From the IMG/VR virus record IMGVR_UViG_3300023281_000031, positions 1 through 24,464 of that record: a DNA stretch of 24,464 nucleotides, one strand, 5' to 3'. This DNA is from a virus. Numbering within the stretch: the first letter of the stretch is position 1; every line of letters starts with the position of its first letter. Positions 1 through 24,202 of this stretch are shown here, in pieces. Position numbers and translations under genes: made by a program. Below the pieces are notes generated by a model, which did not search any database, was not told the DNA's origin, and saw only the letters and a list, made by a program, of their open reading frames with translations.

Positions 1-1500
1 CATCATAGCTTCGGCTGCCCACCCTGAGTTCCACGCGTTAGAAACACCGTCAGTAAATCCCTGCCAGTTCTCAGTAAACTCAGCGTATACATTCTTATCG
101 TGCTTAGCGTCTAAGTAAGTCTTCGCTTGGTCATACTTCATAGCCGCCTGCTGCTGCACCTGCTTATTGGAGTTGAATTCAGCGATTAGATTATTAGCAT
201 ACTCAAGCTCCTGCTCATTCTTAGGCTCGTATTTTACTAGCTCCTCCACGGGTATACCGAACGAAGCCATAGAATTCTTCTGAATAGCTGCCTCCTTAGC
301 GCGTGATGATTGATTAATACTAGCCGCCTGACCAGCTATTTTATTCTGACGCTGGTTGAGGTATACATCGAAGTCCTCACGTGCTGTCATAGCCTCGTCA
401 TCCATAACCGCATCGAAGAGGGTGTCCTCTCGCTGCTCGATAGAATCCACATAGCTCTCTACGTCTTTACGTAGTACGCCGTTAGTGTAGTGCTGACTAT
501 ACAAAGCCTTCTCTTCTTCATTAAGAGATTCTAACTCAACGTTGTCACTGTCCTCTAAGAAGATACGCTCGTCACGTAAAGCCTCGTACTCCTGTAGTGC
601 TGCTTGGTCAGAGCCATAATCTCTATTCCTTTCACGAAAGAAATGCTGAGCTTCAATCTCTACAGGGGCCACGTCCTTCCAGCTGCCCTCAGCAAAAGCA
701 TTAGCCTCCTCCTCAGTGTCAAAAGTAAATACCTCACCACGCGATTCAGCTGTTTGGATAGCTTCGTCCGTACCCAACCTCATCCACGTTCTACCGTCTG
801 AGTTGTAGTTGTCAGGGTTGATAGGGAATAGAGTAGGCGCCACCTTGTACTGACCGTCTTGTTCGTACGACATAAACTCCACCGTGGATTCGGTGCCGTC
901 GTTATTACGCATAGCTTCCGCCCTCATATTCTGAGCACGGTAAGCTTTGTCTAGTACGTTATCGGTGTCTAACTCTACAGGTGCGGTAGCGTTAGCATTC
1001 ATAAACTGACGTAGACGCTGCGATTCTACCTCAGCCCCTGCATCAGTAAACGTGTCTAGGTCCACGTCGATAGAGGCGCTACCGTCGGTAGTAGTGACGG
1101 ACATTGCATCGCCGATACCTGATTCGTTGAAAGTAAATCCATACTTCCCAAACTCTTTACGCATATCAGGAACCACCTGCTCCTCCTCCTGAGCTATAAG
1201 GCCAGGGGTTACTACGTCGAGAGACTCAGATAGGCTAGGTGCTTGGTCAACGAGTTGAACGGACGGCTCCAAAGAACCATCGTCCAATGACGAATCCATA
1301 GGCTCGTCTTTTTTTTTTAAGCCCATCAAGGCTTGGTAGTCATCCATACTCTTGGAATAACCACCCGTCTGAAACAAGTCGTAAGAATCTTGAAGAGCTT
1401 GAGGGTTTGTATTGATAAGCTCTACAAACTCATCGAAAGATTTGGCGTAGCCCCCTGTCTTAAACAACTCGTACGAGTCCTTAACTGCTTGTTCGTTCAT
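1..1500 (-). CDS. Large virion (cargo/internal) protein, 3'-truncated by window edge
   Basis: The frame stays open from an ATG at 1500 to the window edge, giving 500 residues with no stop, so only the N-terminal part is seen. Residues 2-61 are two copies of a 30-residue motif with core DSYELFKTGGYAKS and then DSYDLFQTGGYSKS. A lysine patch (62-64) encoded by a run of ten A follows. The rest is acidic, rich in Q, E and A, and mostly helical in character, with no catalytic motif I recognise. It starts 9 nt after the 670-aa gene and continues the block of candidate internal virion proteins. From position and composition I infer a large protein packaged in the head and ejected with the DNA. It could also be the start of a very large virion enzyme whose active domain lies outside the window. 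The gene is secure; the role is tentative. Confidence 0.75.
   Translation of the reverse strand, partial: MNEQAVKDSYELFKTGGYAKSFDEFVELINTNPQALQDSYDLFQTGGYSKSMDDYQALMGLKKKDEPMDSSLDDGSLEPSVQLVDQAPSLSESLDVVTPGLIAQEEEQVVPDMRKEFGKYGFTFNESGIGDAMSVTTTDGSASIDVDLDTFTDAGAEVESQRLRQFMNANATAPVELDTDNVLDKAYRAQNMRAEAMRNNDGTESTVEFMSYEQDGQYKVAPTLFPINPDNYNSDGRTWMRLGTDEAIQTAESRGEVFTFDTEEEANAFAEGSWKDVAPVEIEAQHFFRERNRDYGSDQAALQEYEALRDERIFLEDSDNVELESLNEEEKALYSQHYTNGVLRKDVESYVDSIEQREDTLFDAVMDDEAMTAREDFDVYLNQRQNKIAGQAASINQSSRAKEAAIQKNSMASFGIPVEELVKYEPKNEQELEYANNLIAEFNSNKQVQQQAAMKYDQAKTYLDAKHDKNVYAEFTENWQGFTDGVSNAWNSGWAAEAMM
1318..1497 (-). repeat. Two tandem 90-bp coding repeats (30-aa motif)
   Basis: Residues 2-31 and 32-61 of the truncated virion protein align without gaps at a period of 30 residues (90 bp). 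By eye about 15 positions are identical, including D-S-Y-x-L-F, T-G-G-Y, K-S, D and L. The DNA copies have diverged more than the proteins, so this is an old duplication kept for protein function and not a recent tandem slippage. The pattern suggests a small helical hairpin used twice, for example as a docking tag. Confidence 0.85.
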
Positions 1501-1509
1501 GACTATTTA

Positions 1510-3522
1510 TTAATATCCACTTGTATCCCTAGTACCGTTTGGGTTGGTCGTAGCTGGTGCTCCAGACGCGCCAGGCGCTCCGAACTGTCCTTGTCTAGCC
1601 TCTCTAACTTTCTCGTTATTGTAGGCATCGAACGTGGCTCCATCAAAGATAGAACGAAAGTCCTTAGTGGTAATAGTTCGCCCCGTTTTTGCAGCGTCAA
1701 GCACCATCTTATTTACCTCTTCCATCGTTGACTTAGGAACATCTCTATCATCAGGTATATATATAGGCTCCGTCATTACGCTAGGCACAAAGTATTCGAT
1801 AGCGTCGTTGTCGTTTCCTAACAGCCCTTCACTACTAGGGATGTCGTTTTCATTTACAAATCTAACAGTGGACTGAAGTCCCGCCGTAGCTAGAGCTGAC
1901 TGAGCAGCCGTAGCCATGACTGAGAACTCAGGGTCCTCAGGGTTCTCCCCTAGTGCCTCATTGTATGCATTACGTGGAGACTTCTTGGACTTACCAACCA
2001 CCTCATCGTAGCCTGTTATCTGAGTGGGTGCGTCAGTAATTCCAGCCCTCGTACCAGAGAAATCCTTATTAACCATAGTAGATGAGGGGTCGCCACCACC
2101 TGAACGCTCCATCACCTCGGTCACATTGCTCACCCCATGAACAGTGTTGCCCAACTCAGCCCACTGCTGAAGAGTTACATCCTCTGGTAGATTGATTGTA
2201 CGAGAGGTGCCGTTACTATAGGTAACGGTATACTGTCCGTCGGTTGTAAAGTCAAGGTCTCTTATATCCCTACTTACCGCGCCTGGTTCGCTCAACGCTT
2301 TATCAGCTGCCATCTGCCGCTCTTCAGCGCTGGTCGCGTTAAAGATTTGATTCCATGAACCCACCGCCTGTTCTTCAGTTTTTTCTGAGCCTGACCGAGC
2401 TTCAGCTTGAGAGCTTTTCTCCCACCATTTCTCAGGTCGAGCCGTCTCTTTCTCGTCAAGCATTCCACGCAAACGATTGGTTACCGTCTCCTTCGCCATA
2501 GCTACCTGGCTCTCTCGGTTGGCGTTAATCTTATCGGCCATCTCCTGTGTGACAGGAGGGACGGCGTCAAGGTTGGCTTTAATCTCTACGTCGAACCCAG
2601 GGATAGGCGCACCAGACGTAGGTTGTTCGGGGTTGTCAATCAATAGTATCAGGGACGGGTCGTTAGCCGCCTCCTGGAAATCAGACGTAAAACCAAAGGG
2701 AGTCCCCTCATCGTTAGTCTTTCGGATATTGGTTAGGATAGAGCTGGTATTGGTGGGCACCGCAAGCTGTTGGTTAACCAGGTCCCTTTCCATATTGAGA
2801 TACTCAGGGCTATTCATAGCTGACTCAAGGGTTTTTACATTACCCTTCATCATCACCTTTACCTTAGCGCCTAGGTTATCCACGCTAGAAGCTAGAGAAC
2901 CCTCCATGTCAAAGGCGTCGTACCTTGCCTTCATACGCATCTTCAGGTCATTCACTCTCAACCTGTCGTTAGGGCTGGTGGACATCTCTTGTACCCCTGT
3001 TTCAGGGTTAGTAATCATCTTAGCTGCATTGACCTGCCCATTAGCTGGGTCAATGAAAAGACTTGTACTACTAAAGTTACCAAACCCCTCTGCTGTAGCC
3101 ATCAGATATGCTTCAAGAGCCTGAGCCTCTCCATTTTTTTGGCGCTCCATCTTGTCAGCATACTCGTTCTGGTACTCCGTCGCCATACTGAACGCATCGT
3201 TAGTGCCCTGTTCTAGGTTTGCCCTGATATTGGTATAGTCGCTGACCCTCATCTGACCAGACTTCAATAAGTTCTCCGTGATAAGAGCGTACTCCGATAG
3301 GTCATTAGAGAACTGAGTGACATAACGATTAGCGTCCTGGTGCTCACCTAGTGGCGGGCTAGCAAACATCTCAGCTTGGTCCCTAGCTTGTTGGTCCAGT
3401 TCGGCCTTCATACCATCGCGAATACCACGCTCAGTGGCAATCATCTTGGTCATATCCTGCCCTACTTTACCCCAGTCTACCTGAGTAGCAGCACTCCTCT
3501 GAGCTCTCTTATAGTAAGTCAT
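1510..3522 (-). CDS. Internal virion (cargo) protein candidate, 670 aa
   Basis: Complete gene. Its ATG overlaps the stop of the 300-aa gene by 1 nt (TAATG), so the two are probably translationally coupled. The first 290 residues look strongly helical and charged, including an N-terminal stretch rich in D, Q, R and E (about 20-55) and a segment around 80-95 (ITENLLKSGQMRVSDY) that I associate with virion proteins of marine Bacteroidota phages. The middle has a short beta-like stretch (TTDGQYTVTYSNGTSRTINL). The C-terminus is a G/A/P/N-rich flexible tail. There is no signal peptide, membrane segment or enzyme motif. Position between a gp14-like small internal protein and a larger virion protein resembles the T7 gp14-gp15-gp16 order, which suggests a role as ejected internal protein. 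The family assignment is inference. Confidence 0.65.
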   Translation of the reverse strand: MTYYKRAQRSAATQVDWGKVGQDMTKMIATERGIRDGMKAELDQQARDQAEMFASPPLGEHQDANRYVTQFSNDLSEYALITENLLKSGQMRVSDYTNIRANLEQGTNDAFSMATEYQNEYADKMERQKNGEAQALEAYLMATAEGFGNFSSTSLFIDPANGQVNAAKMITNPETGVQEMSTSPNDRLRVNDLKMRMKARYDAFDMEGSLASSVDNLGAKVKVMMKGNVKTLESAMNSPEYLNMERDLVNQQLAVPTNTSSILTNIRKTNDEGTPFGFTSDFQEAANDPSLILLIDNPEQPTSGAPIPGFDVEIKANLDAVPPVTQEMADKINANRESQVAMAKETVTNRLRGMLDEKETARPEKWWEKSSQAEARSGSEKTEEQAVGSWNQIFNATSAEERQMAADKALSEPGAVSRDIRDLDFTTDGQYTVTYSNGTSRTINLPEDVTLQQWAELGNTVHGVSNVTEVMERSGGGDPSSTMVNKDFSGTRAGITDAPTQITGYDEVVGKSKKSPRNAYNEALGENPEDPEFSVMATAAQSALATAGLQSTVRFVNENDIPSSEGLLGNDNDAIEYFVPSVMTEPIYIPDDRDVPKSTMEEVNKMVLDAAKTGRTITTKDFRSIFDGATFDAYNNEKVREARQGQFGAPGASGAPATTNPNGTRDTSGY

Positions 3523-4424
3523 TATCCGAAAGGGTTCATGTTGTAAAAGTCATTCTGAGGCATACCGATTACTTGATTTCCAAGATTCGTTTGCTGTCCC
3601 TGTACGCCAGGCATAGTCACCACCCCTGGTACGGTCTGCTGAGCCTGAGGCATAGCGTAGTTGAAGGCGTTAGACCGAGCCATACCCTTCATTGCGTTAT
3701 TGTCCAGGCCGCCGATAAAGGAGCCATACTGTTGGTCATTCATACCCCCTACAGAAGAGAAGTCAACACCACCTATGATGCCAGCTTGAGCAAGAGAATT
3801 CCTGTAATCAGCGGACGTTGCGCCTTTATTGTTTTGCATGAATAACTTCTGCATCTTAGCGTCGTTCCTTACGTTGGCTGTCTTCGCGTATAGCGGAGCC
3901 ATCTCCATCGCTTGCTGGCCCATGCTAGCTACTCCAGTAACCCCAGCCTGTATGTTGGCTGCTCTAGCTACCTGAGCATCTCGCGCTGCCTCTTGAGCTC
4001 CAGCCACCTCACCTAAGTCAAGCTCAGTATTTATATCACGAAGCCTACTCTGTTCAGCTATAATATCATCCTCTATCTGCGTGAGCTCGTTACCCATCGC
4101 AGTACGGGTGCCAGCCTGCTGTTGACCAGCGGCCATAGCTACACGCCCAGCGGTGGCAGCGCTACCACGAGGGTCGGATTCACGAGCCGCCTGCATAGCG
4201 TCAGCCGCAACGACCAAGTTCGCCTCCCGCTCTAACTCGTATGGTTCTTTCTTAATAGACTTCGCCTCAGCGTAGTTTACATCCAGACGTTTTCTCGCCT
4301 CAGACATAGCTTTAGCTGCGTCAGCGTTAGCCTTATCTTCTAACTTACGCTGTTTGCCAGCTTGATAGAATGAAGCGCCAGTAGTTATGCTTGTTAGGGC
4401 TAGCGATGCGATTATTCCTGACAT
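3522..4424 (-). CDS. Small internal virion protein, alanine-rich, T7 gp14-like in position
   Basis: 300-aa gene starting inside the end of the cupin gene (13-nt overlap). The N-terminus (residues 3-20, GIIASLALTSITTGASFY) is a hydrophobic, glycine-containing stretch like that of small internal/ejection proteins. Residues 25-170 are Ala-, Glu- and Arg-rich and probably form long helices, with a short Gln cluster near residue 105. The C-terminal 100 residues are rich in N, Q, G and M and probably flexible. T7 gp14 and P22-type ejection proteins share this size and composition, but I see no residue-level signature, so the function is inferred from composition and from the larger virion proteins immediately downstream. 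Confidence 0.6.
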   Translation of the reverse strand: MSGIIASLALTSITTGASFYQAGKQRKLEDKANADAAKAMSEARKRLDVNYAEAKSIKKEPYELEREANLVVAADAMQAARESDPRGSAATAGRVAMAAGQQQAGTRTAMGNELTQIEDDIIAEQSRLRDINTELDLGEVAGAQEAARDAQVARAANIQAGVTGVASMGQQAMEMAPLYAKTANVRNDAKMQKLFMQNNKGATSADYRNSLAQAGIIGGVDFSSVGGMNDQQYGSFIGGLDNNAMKGMARSNAFNYAMPQAQQTVPGVVTMPGVQGQQTNLGNQVIGMPQNDFYNMNPFG

Positions 4425-13204: not shown

Positions 13205-13232
13205 AAAAAAAAAAGAGGGACCTAAGCCCCTC
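13205..13232 (-). terminator. Rho-independent terminator after the small-protein pair
   Basis: On the minus strand a 7-bp stem (GAGGGGC / GTCCCTC, one G-T pair) with a TTAG loop is followed at once by ten T. It lies 23 nt past the stop of the 95-aa gene and separates the head block from the tail block. Confidence 0.9.
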
Positions 13233-23624: not shown

Positions 23625-23786
23625 TTACCCTTTTCGGTTCTTACCCATAACAACGGCTTGAAGGATACGAGATAATACATTTACAATGCGGTCGTCCTTC
23701 TTGGTTTCTGTGAGCGCGGTCATAGTTCCTGCCGCAGTCAAAACAGCCAACGCAATCTCGGCCCAGTATGATGCTAAAAAATTCAT
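23625..23786 (-). CDS. Small holin-like membrane protein (53 aa)
   Basis: Short gene found by reading the gap: ATG at 23784-23786 (ATGA overlap with the amidase stop), stop TAA at 23625-23627. The product is MNFLASYWAEIALAVLTAAG then TMTALTETKKDD and a helical basic end (RIVNVLSRILQAVVMGKNRK). One membrane helix (about 4-23) is followed by a basic soluble part. Overlap with the amidase gene and the size make a holin or holin-associated protein likely. A small membrane protein of another sort cannot be excluded. Confidence 0.7.
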   Translation of the reverse strand: MNFLASYWAEIALAVLTAAGTMTALTETKKDDRIVNVLSRILQAVVMGKNRKG

Positions 23787-24202
23787 GTCGTTTCGTTTAA
23801 AAATTTATACTTATCCTGAACATCAAATGAAGGGCAAGCTTTTTTTGAATACTCGTTGTGTCCGTGGATATTTAACTCCCCAAAAATAAGGCGTAAACTT
23901 TTAACCAGATTTAAGAACGATATATCCTGCATCTCAGTCATCGTGTCTAGGGGTTTCAAGTTGTTGTCCACACCTCCTATATAACACACACCTATAGAGT
24001 CTAGGTTATGCGAATGAGTGTGAGCCCCAATCACATCGATGTCTCTACCTTTATGTATTGAGCCATCGGCGTAGATACAGAAGTGGTATCCGATATCGTC
24101 CCACCCACGAAGCATATGCCATCCACGTATATCATCAACAGTTACATCGCGTCCCTCTGGTGTAGCTGAGCAGTGTAAGATAATTCGTTTTAAATTCCTC
24201 AT
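23783..24202 (-). CDS. N-acetylmuramoyl-L-alanine amidase, T7 lysozyme type (endolysin)
   Basis: 139-aa Amidase_2 family enzyme. Residue by residue it follows T7 lysozyme: IILHCSATP with zinc ligand H10, Y39 in DIGYHF, H115 in HGHNEY, and KKACPSFD with K121 and zinc ligand C123. These correspond to T7 H17, Y46, H122, K128 and C130 with identical spacing. The short block NLDSIGVCYIGGVD is also shared. It lacks the extra N-terminal residues of T7 lysozyme. It hydrolyses the amide link between muramic acid and L-alanine in peptidoglycan. No signal peptide is seen, so access to the wall should need a holin. It is coupled by 4-nt overlaps to the small membrane proteins on either side. Confidence 0.95.
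   Translation of the reverse strand: MRNLKRIILHCSATPEGRDVTVDDIRGWHMLRGWDDIGYHFCIYADGSIHKGRDIDVIGAHTHSHNLDSIGVCYIGGVDNNLKPLDTMTEMQDISFLNLVKSLRLIFGELNIHGHNEYSKKACPSFDVQDKYKFLNETT

Follow-up and report, generated by a model that had tools for sequence, protein, structure and literature searches.

An exchangeable N-terminal tag bounded by a ten-adenine tract, a candidate slippage site, in giant proteins of flavophage-like podoviruses

Genes and Repeat at the Window Edge

The window, which is the whole stretch of DNA analysed (a virus record of 24,464 bases), opens within a giant-protein gene on the minus strand. The ATG of this gene is at 1500–1498 and its frame leaves the window at base 1. The first 500 amino acids of the giant protein are contained in the window; the rest of the body (1–1308, minus strand) is cut off by the contig edge. 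The gene of a 96% identical homologue, L002, is complete and encodes 3,048 aa. Directly upstream of the giant gene is a 670-aa protein (1510–3522, minus strand) in the position of phi18:3 gp121, to which a virion role is assigned by gene order only. It is followed by a 300-aa protein (3522–4424, minus strand) in the position of phi18:3 gp120, which matches PHROG 13764, a virion structural protein, at E 8.6e-13. Most of 15 window starts inspected by eye are without a Shine-Dalgarno sequence and two have AAGG-like stretches. Such absence is usual in Bacteroidota, and the host of the window phage is likely a member of this phylum. An ORF at 23783–24202 opens like a phage amidase (IILHCSATPEGRDVTVDDIRGWH), judged from reading the sequence only.

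The giant protein starts with MNEQAVK (1480–1500, minus strand), and an M-[ND]-E start is common to most tagged relatives. The first copy of the N-terminal repeat, hereafter the tag, spans residues 8–37 (DSYELFKTGGYAKSFDEFVELINTNPQALQ; 1390–1479, minus strand) and is predicted by AlphaFold2 to form a helix, a GYxKS loop and a second helix, with a pLDDT of about 85. The second copy spans residues 38–60 (DSYDLFQTGGYSKSMDDYQALMG; 1321–1389, minus strand) and is placed by lag comparison and the AlphaFold2 model. The residues LKKK come next, encoded as TTA AAA AAA AAA. This stretch includes a tract of ten adenines (A10; 1309–1318, minus strand), which is the proposed slippage site and cassette boundary. 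After LKKK there is an acidic linker rich in S, D and E (DEPMDSSLDDGSLEPS...; 1171–1308, minus strand). S/T-D-G-S linkers resembling that of the window come after the A-run in many relatives.

The two in-frame 30-residue copies described in an earlier, sequence-only reading of the window are real. The doubled unit consists of two copies of about 30 aa within residues 8–60. When the sequence is compared with itself at a 30-residue lag, 16 identities fall within the first 40 positions, and the next best value among lags of 25–39 is 4. The two units have 49 of 90 nucleotides in common, which indicates that the duplication is old; Tandem Repeats Finder gives no row at the repeat site. The unit is absent from the remainder of the 24,464-base record, as that reading had also stated, and the protein search and the core-pattern search agree on this.

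Predicted Structure and Family Searches

The AlphaFold2 model of the tag contains two helical hairpins (helices 3–16, 22–31, 33–46 and 52–59; mean pLDDT 82). Helical hairpins are predicted for the KFPEF tag type as well (pLDDT 88, single sequence). With two tag types as queries, Foldseek finds no match in the PDB at E 0.001 or below. The best VIA-align result for the tag has a Z of 2.3 and an rmsd of 4.7 over 46 aligned residues. Among BFVD viral-library models there are five matches at probability 1.00, one of them with E < 0.001, and none is named. Sequence searches of Pfam, PHROG and the PDB with the tag give weak, mutually inconsistent matches only. DUF3364 (PF11844) matches 10 of 26 tags at E 0.1 or better; for the window tag it was rejected, with a score of 24.6 bits, below the Pfam curated cut-off of 27.4. 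No description of the tag or of the A10 tract was found among literature titles and the opening parts of abstracts.

Occurrence, Position and Types of the Tag

The tag was searched for with a DNA pattern of two GYxK...[FY] cores 90 bases apart, which is independent of any start codon. At least 80 IMG/VR loci match. The extreme N-terminal position that had been noted for the window repeat holds for 78 of the 80 loci listed, which have a start codon 15–18 codons before the first GY. The two exceptions are L093, with a start 32 codons upstream, and L041, which is low-complexity. In 84,980 bacterial and archaeal genomes (257 Gb) there are 52 pattern stretches, three of which are true tags by profile: L235, from a Flavobacteriaceae MAG, L255 and L261. 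The L255 contig belongs to a Pseudomonadales MAG; its tagged gene is closely similar to tags from viral contigs, and it is probably a phage contig binned with that MAG. By these counts the position of the tag is strictly N-terminal, and almost all of its occurrences are on phage contigs.

In a search of 50 whole records, 49 match and each of these has a single strong match; Gundel_1 is without a match. The expectation that several cargo proteins per phage would be tagged is not supported by these records. Additional weak rows occur in G035 (E 0.0064, in another ORF) and G044 (E 0.0043, in the same ORF). Residues 130–150 of the L216 open frame resemble a third, partial tag copy, weakly (E 0.39; 0.0043 in another search). 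Among 50,697 GenBank phages searched at E 10 or better, the tag is matched only in MW202828.1 (E 3e-12; a 3,859-aa protein), which is also the sole match of two GYxK tags. In the same database the PDG...RYG tag type has no match and the KFPEF type has one weak match, to a Streptococcus phage (E 0.08).

A body-side search with the C-terminal module A7 was seeded from tagged proteins, and the best 80 of 132 loci were taken. IMG/VR contigs are fragments, and the N-terminus is visible in 63 of these loci, a count in which related sequences are not independent. The GYxK profile matches 39 of the 63 at E < 0.01, some weakly, and the other 24 match worse or not at all. Internal duplication exceeds that of all 60 shuffles in 58 of the 63; the five that fail are L300, L324 (tag in another frame), L330, L335 and L351. 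The tags of phi13:2, Gundel_1 and elemoA are also without significant duplication. Two copies are therefore not essential, as judged by these three phages and by L330, L335, L351 and L300.

The KFPEF and PDG...RYG types show no clear relationship to GYxK (hhalign probability 27.5, over 20 columns, for the former and 0.7 for the latter), and two other tag sets are remotely related to it (96.8 and 93.2). In 57 tags, the two copies within one protein share a mean of 12.5 of 25 positions. Copy 1 shares 9.4 of 25 with copy 2 of other proteins, and the values for copy 1 with copy 1 and copy 2 with copy 2 are 11.7 and 11.0. The higher similarity within proteins fits a paired or self-recognising module, and can also reflect intramolecular packing or shared descent.

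The Ten-Adenine Tract at the Tag Boundary

The lysine patch and the acidic stretch that the sequence-only reading placed after the repeat are both present, and the patch turns out to be the A10 nucleotide tract rather than a peptide feature. An A-run of at least nine is present in 129 of 134 distinct N-termini (A10 in 119, A9 in 7, A11 in 2 and A13 in 1). The five without a counted run are L028, which has A8 and a body open in another frame; L324, which has A9 and a tag out of frame; L061 and L071, where the contig ends; and L300, which has A7 in the stretch examined. When tags are clustered at 70% identity, the run is found in 62 of 66 clusters and is exactly ten long in 57. Among body-selected loci with the N-terminus in view, 62 of 63 have an A-run of at least nine no more than 420 nt into the open frame.

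The junction KKK is encoded as AAA AAA AAA in 119 of 122 genes, compared with none of 205 KKK occurrences after residue 130 of the same proteins; the AAA share of lysine codons is 99% at the junction KKK and 58% at those further on. The run starts at any codon position, mostly giving LKKK or VKKK, and otherwise EKKN or QKKK, or KKKR, KKKS and similar residues. A lysine patch acting as a peptide signal is ruled out, because the reading frame varies while the A-run stays. Synonymous recoding with the genes' own codon usage (200 trials) leaves a run of at least nine in a mean of 32.5 of the 129 genes, with a maximum of 44. The tract is thus selected as nucleotides and not as lysines.

Outside the junction such runs are rare. 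From nt 400 onward, the bodies (733,481 nt) are free of A-runs of at least nine, which suggests that such runs are slippery and costly here, and 302 kb of upstream sequence contain two A9 runs. The open frames of 54 related-phage pieces (848,814 nt) contain 59 runs of at least nine. All 47 that lie in ORFs of at least 600 aa are at the junction, two are in truncated tag genes, and the other 10 are elsewhere in shorter ORFs, some at the same place in related records. In the 14 window genes scanned, the A10 is the only A-run of at least nine except for an A9 in the terminase gene (747 aa), which is outside the 54-piece scan. A plus-strand A10 at 13205–13214 lies between minus-strand genes and may be part of a terminator.

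The cultured phages phi38:1, elemoA and Gundel_1 have A10. In phi13:2, phi18:3, phi19:3 and phi46:3 (L369, L371, L373 and L374) the run is A9 and the body is in the -1 frame. The deposited annotation of these four gives the tag and the giant protein as two genes split at the A9. Labels such as 'similarity to phi8:3' also occur in these Cellulophaga records and may be meant for phi18:3. The A9 with split frames in these four older genomes could be a sequencing error.

In the window, the first stop in the -1 frame past the A10 is at 1247–1249 (minus strand), 20 codons on, and the first in the +1 frame is at 1212–1214 (minus strand), 31 codons on. The predicted tag-only products are 84 and 95 aa long, respectively. 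Across the relatives, the median distance to the first stop is 22 codons in the -1 frame and 35 codons in the +1 frame. The tag-selected set, for which an intact body was no criterion, contains 71 distinct genes with a run of at least nine, 65 of them exactly A10. None of the 71 meets a stop within 45 codons past the run, or before the contig edge where that comes first; L028 is an exception outside this count.

A downstream RNA hairpin as a slippage stimulator was rejected, since the 60 nt downstream of the run fold only slightly better than their shuffles (-12.7 vs -11.3 kcal/mol). An SD-like 4-mer is found upstream of the run in 32 of 114 cases. The in-frame heptamer A AAA AAG is present in the A9 Cellulophaga genomes, in L324 and in the three of 122 junctions coded AAA AAA AAG, and is absent from the common A10 layout. 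The heptamer rule for ribosomal slippery sites, as worded in the available portion of its source, fits the A9 form with A AAA AAG (PMC4066793).

Exchange of Tags between Related Phages

The proteins L342 and L345 have different tags from L343 and L344, and the bodies are 95–96% identical over 500 aa. In DNA of the swap pair, identity is about 94% until 37–51 nt before the start codon, is lost across the tag, and is about 95% from the A-run on. Compared piecewise, G049 and G051 are about 95% identical across about 47.6 kb aligned, and the only unaligned block longer than 10 nt besides the contig ends is the tag block (279 vs 217 nt). At the G051 contig ends, 465 bases are unaligned to G049. A comparison with G050 (36.9 kb aligned) shows further gaps of 46 and 58 nt. 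Within the shared part of G049 and G051, a tail-protein stretch at 44.0–44.8 kb is less similar (82–84%), and three other 400-nt stretches are 88–89% identical.

Two loci of the tail region vary in their own right. L356 (G049 about 44.0–44.8 kb) encodes a 386-aa tail-region protein with 82–84% DNA identity across tag types and 97–99% between same-tag phages; it possibly co-varies with tag type. L355 (G049 about 22.4–26.6 kb) is a tail-fibre-like locus with collagen-like GPQGPKGDTG repeats, which varies even among same-tag phages and near which related contigs end.

Tags also differ between proteins with similar bodies in L084/L321, L316/L322, L072/L284, L280/L287 and L335/L351, among other pairs. 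Cultured phages give a parallel case: the tags of phi13:2 gp126 and phi18:3 gp122 differ, and after KKK all of their residues but one are the same. An additional scan for near-identical swap pairs gave only the same four records and one contig end. The tag is thus a self-contained, exchangeable cassette that extends, in the best pair, from about 45 nt upstream of the start codon to the ten-A tract. The finding of unrelated tags on one backbone of about 95% identity disfavours a virion receptor specific to the tag and encoded within the shared 47 kb or so, and the portal or ring docking proposed in the sequence-only reading loses ground accordingly. About 12 kb of G049, including tail-fibre-like genes, is uncovered by G051, so that a swapped partner there is possible. 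Such clean swaps fit self-association of the tag or a host-side role.

Giant Protein Bodies and Virion Placement

Complete tagged proteins are mostly 1,400–4,200 aa long, with exceptions of 762 aa and 104 aa; the latter is the A8 run-length variant L028. When the first 90 residues are removed, 46 of 48 bodies join one network through shared modules (the untagged Gundel_1 protein is included and proteins below 150 aa are left out). The recurrence of the unit on differing proteins, for which a search had been suggested, is observed: of the 741 pairs formed by complete tagged proteins, 292 match only within the first 110 residues, 253 match there and elsewhere, 161 match elsewhere only and 35 do not match, in a pair set that was chosen by tag and therefore overstates the relative conservation of the tag. 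The tagged bodies are mosaics.

Among the tagged proteins scanned with Pfam, ART-PolyVal is found in 2 of 16, LPD38 in 1 of 16 and LPD23 in 2 of 20. GNAT and DUF5700 zinc-peptidase models match some tagged bodies, and HEXXH-type motifs are present in some. As a group, the tagged giant proteins are assignable by their domains to the polyvalent proteins, as these are described in the available portion of Iyer et al. 2017 (PMC5512222). The family of the window protein has none of these polyvalent Pfam domains and only a HEXXH-type motif. L002 matches the Gundel_1 giant protein in the zinc-peptidase-like part of the latter (E 1e-9), and a search with the Gundel_1 protein gives 83 records, from phages of Flavobacterium, Cellulophaga and Tenacibaculum.

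In the phi18:3 record, the giant gp123 and the upstream gp120 and gp121 are annotated from experimental virion MS/MS. The window order of a 300-aa protein, a 670-aa protein and the giant protein resembles that of phi18:3 gp120, gp121 and gp123. In T7, three genes for internal virion proteins lie side by side, and the third of them encodes gp16. In a direct comparison with 172 proteins, gp123 matches 11, tagged ones among them. The best match is the GYxK-tagged L208 (33% over 856 aa, E 4e-116), followed by L202, L204/L081, L209/L078 and L180; none of the 172 proteins that belong to the window family (L221, L006) is matched directly. Virion placement is therefore direct for those other tagged proteins and indirect for that of the window. 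The earlier description of a large virion protein is partly supported, by MS/MS of a homologue of other tagged proteins. The main text of the phi38:1 proteomics study, in the portion available, has no mention of the giant protein gp101 (PMC13288928).

Discussion

Drawn from sequence and record annotations, the favoured interpretation, somewhat more probable than not, is that the window encodes a tagged, virion-type polyvalent giant protein of flavophage-like podoviruses, with an exchangeable cassette, slippage on the A10 and self-binding tags. RNA polymerase, or the ribosome, would slip on the A10 at the tag boundary, and one gene would yield both a short tag-only protein and a full tag-body fusion, at a fixed ratio to each other. 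The doubled helical hairpin might then bind its own kind, and free tags and tagged giant proteins might assemble together into the inner core of the particle. A tag that recognises itself would be swappable without change in any other gene.

Selection against A or T runs is evident at nine nucleotides in many bacterial genomes, and a length-conserved run of nine adenines across homologues is, according to the available portion of Baranov et al. 2005, very likely purposeful slippage (PMC1088944). The same source cautions that sequence is a difficult basis for predicting truncated slippage products. The tagged genes have two features of the dnaX type, namely an A-run of at least nine that is length-conserved in homologues and nearby stops in both shifted frames. 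The length-conserved run and the dnaX-like layout together indicate that the gene most likely gives, by slippage, both a tag-only protein and a fusion.

A different role for the tag, as a docking or packaging element that binds a virion partner (a portal, ring or core protein) with the A10 being incidental, is unlikely, and it has several observations on its side. These are the strict N-terminal position, the single strong tag match per record, the MS/MS annotation of phi18:3 gp123 as a homologue of other tagged proteins, a gene order that resembles that of internal core proteins, and the crAss001 cargo protein gp45, which the available portion of the source describes as retained at the portal and within the tail (PMC10172136). 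It has to accommodate the exchange of unrelated tags while flanking genes stay about 95% identical, and it leaves the A10 tract unexplained. A packaging role of the tag, as proposed in the sequence-only reading, is possible: the N-terminal position, near-confinement to phages and mosaic bodies agree with it, and the finding of one strong match per record, in place of several marked cargo proteins per phage, does not.

The tag may instead act after ejection on a host factor or defence and be swapped at a change of host, as a second host-range locus. The presence of unrelated cassettes on one body suggests diversifying selection, the records of phi13:2 and phi18:3 give different strains of Cellulophaga baltica, and the G049 group has its other clearly variable locus in the tail-fibre region, close to which there are also contig ends. 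This explanation is likewise given a low probability: few carriers have a known host, the fibre region is outside the swap-pair alignment, and the A10 tract is again left unexplained.

The resumption of swap-pair homology at the A-run could mean that the A10 is only a recombination anchor for cassette exchange, with no slippage. This is improbable, since a stretch of ten bases anchors recombination poorly, bodies that share no flanks all the same have a run of the fixed length 10, and 733 kb of body sequence lack runs of at least nine. Phase variation, in which changes in DNA length at the A-run turn the fusion on and off, has out-of-frame variants in its favour (L028 with A8, L324 with A9 and four Cellulophaga phages with A9) and is very improbable, as all 71 tag-selected genes with a run of at least nine stay open and a switch would give mixed lengths.

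The presence of an exact ten-A element across otherwise dissimilar giant proteins, and its absence from the rest of their coding sequence, is a strong sign of programmed slippage. Such slippage would concern a largely uncultured group of phages, where annotations give a gene of this kind either a single ORF or two, the latter in the four Cellulophaga genomes. A further proposal combines A10 slippage, by which every phage would produce free tag and tagged giant protein in a fixed proportion, with an interchangeable, usually duplicated N-terminal identity tag that assembles only with its own type. It is tentative and rather doubtful; if it is true, own-type assembly would keep the particles of co-infecting phages from mixing cargo. 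The slippage and exchangeable-tag claims are testable in the cultured phages phi38:1, phi18:3, Gundel_1 and elemoA.

Comparison with Known Systems

Phage tail fibres and secreted toxins usually have a constant N-terminus and a variable C-terminus, and exchangeable N-terminal tags are the reverse of this plan. The T4 capsid targeting sequence is a short N-terminal element on internal proteins that are carried in the head. The tag resembles it as a short N-terminal element and differs from it in its predicted form, a helical pair that spans about 60 aa. Like the polyvalent proteins of Iyer et al. 2017, the tagged proteins are very large, mosaic and multi-domain, and are encoded in the structural region; they differ in the shared exchangeable N-terminal tag and the A-run, neither of which is described in the available portion of that paper (PMC5512222). 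Polyvalent proteins themselves depart from the secreted-toxin organisation with N-terminal secretion-related domains (PMC5512222).

The layout at the A10 is like that of Thermus thermophilus dnaX, as far as the available portions of the sources describe it, with an A-run on the sense strand, an in-frame full-length product and closely following stops in each shifted frame (PMC1088944, PMC5009743). Unlike the run in dnaX, which is near the 3' end, the tag run comes after about 57–91 codons and lies at a cassette boundary in a virion-type protein, and slippage here is predicted from sequence. As in lambda-type gpG/gpGT, one gene is predicted to give a short protein and a fusion with a common N-terminus (PMC5009743, available portion). 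Unlike these tail chaperones, the putative slippage products described here belong to podovirus-type phages, are parts of an unrelated protein and would arise at an A10 tract.
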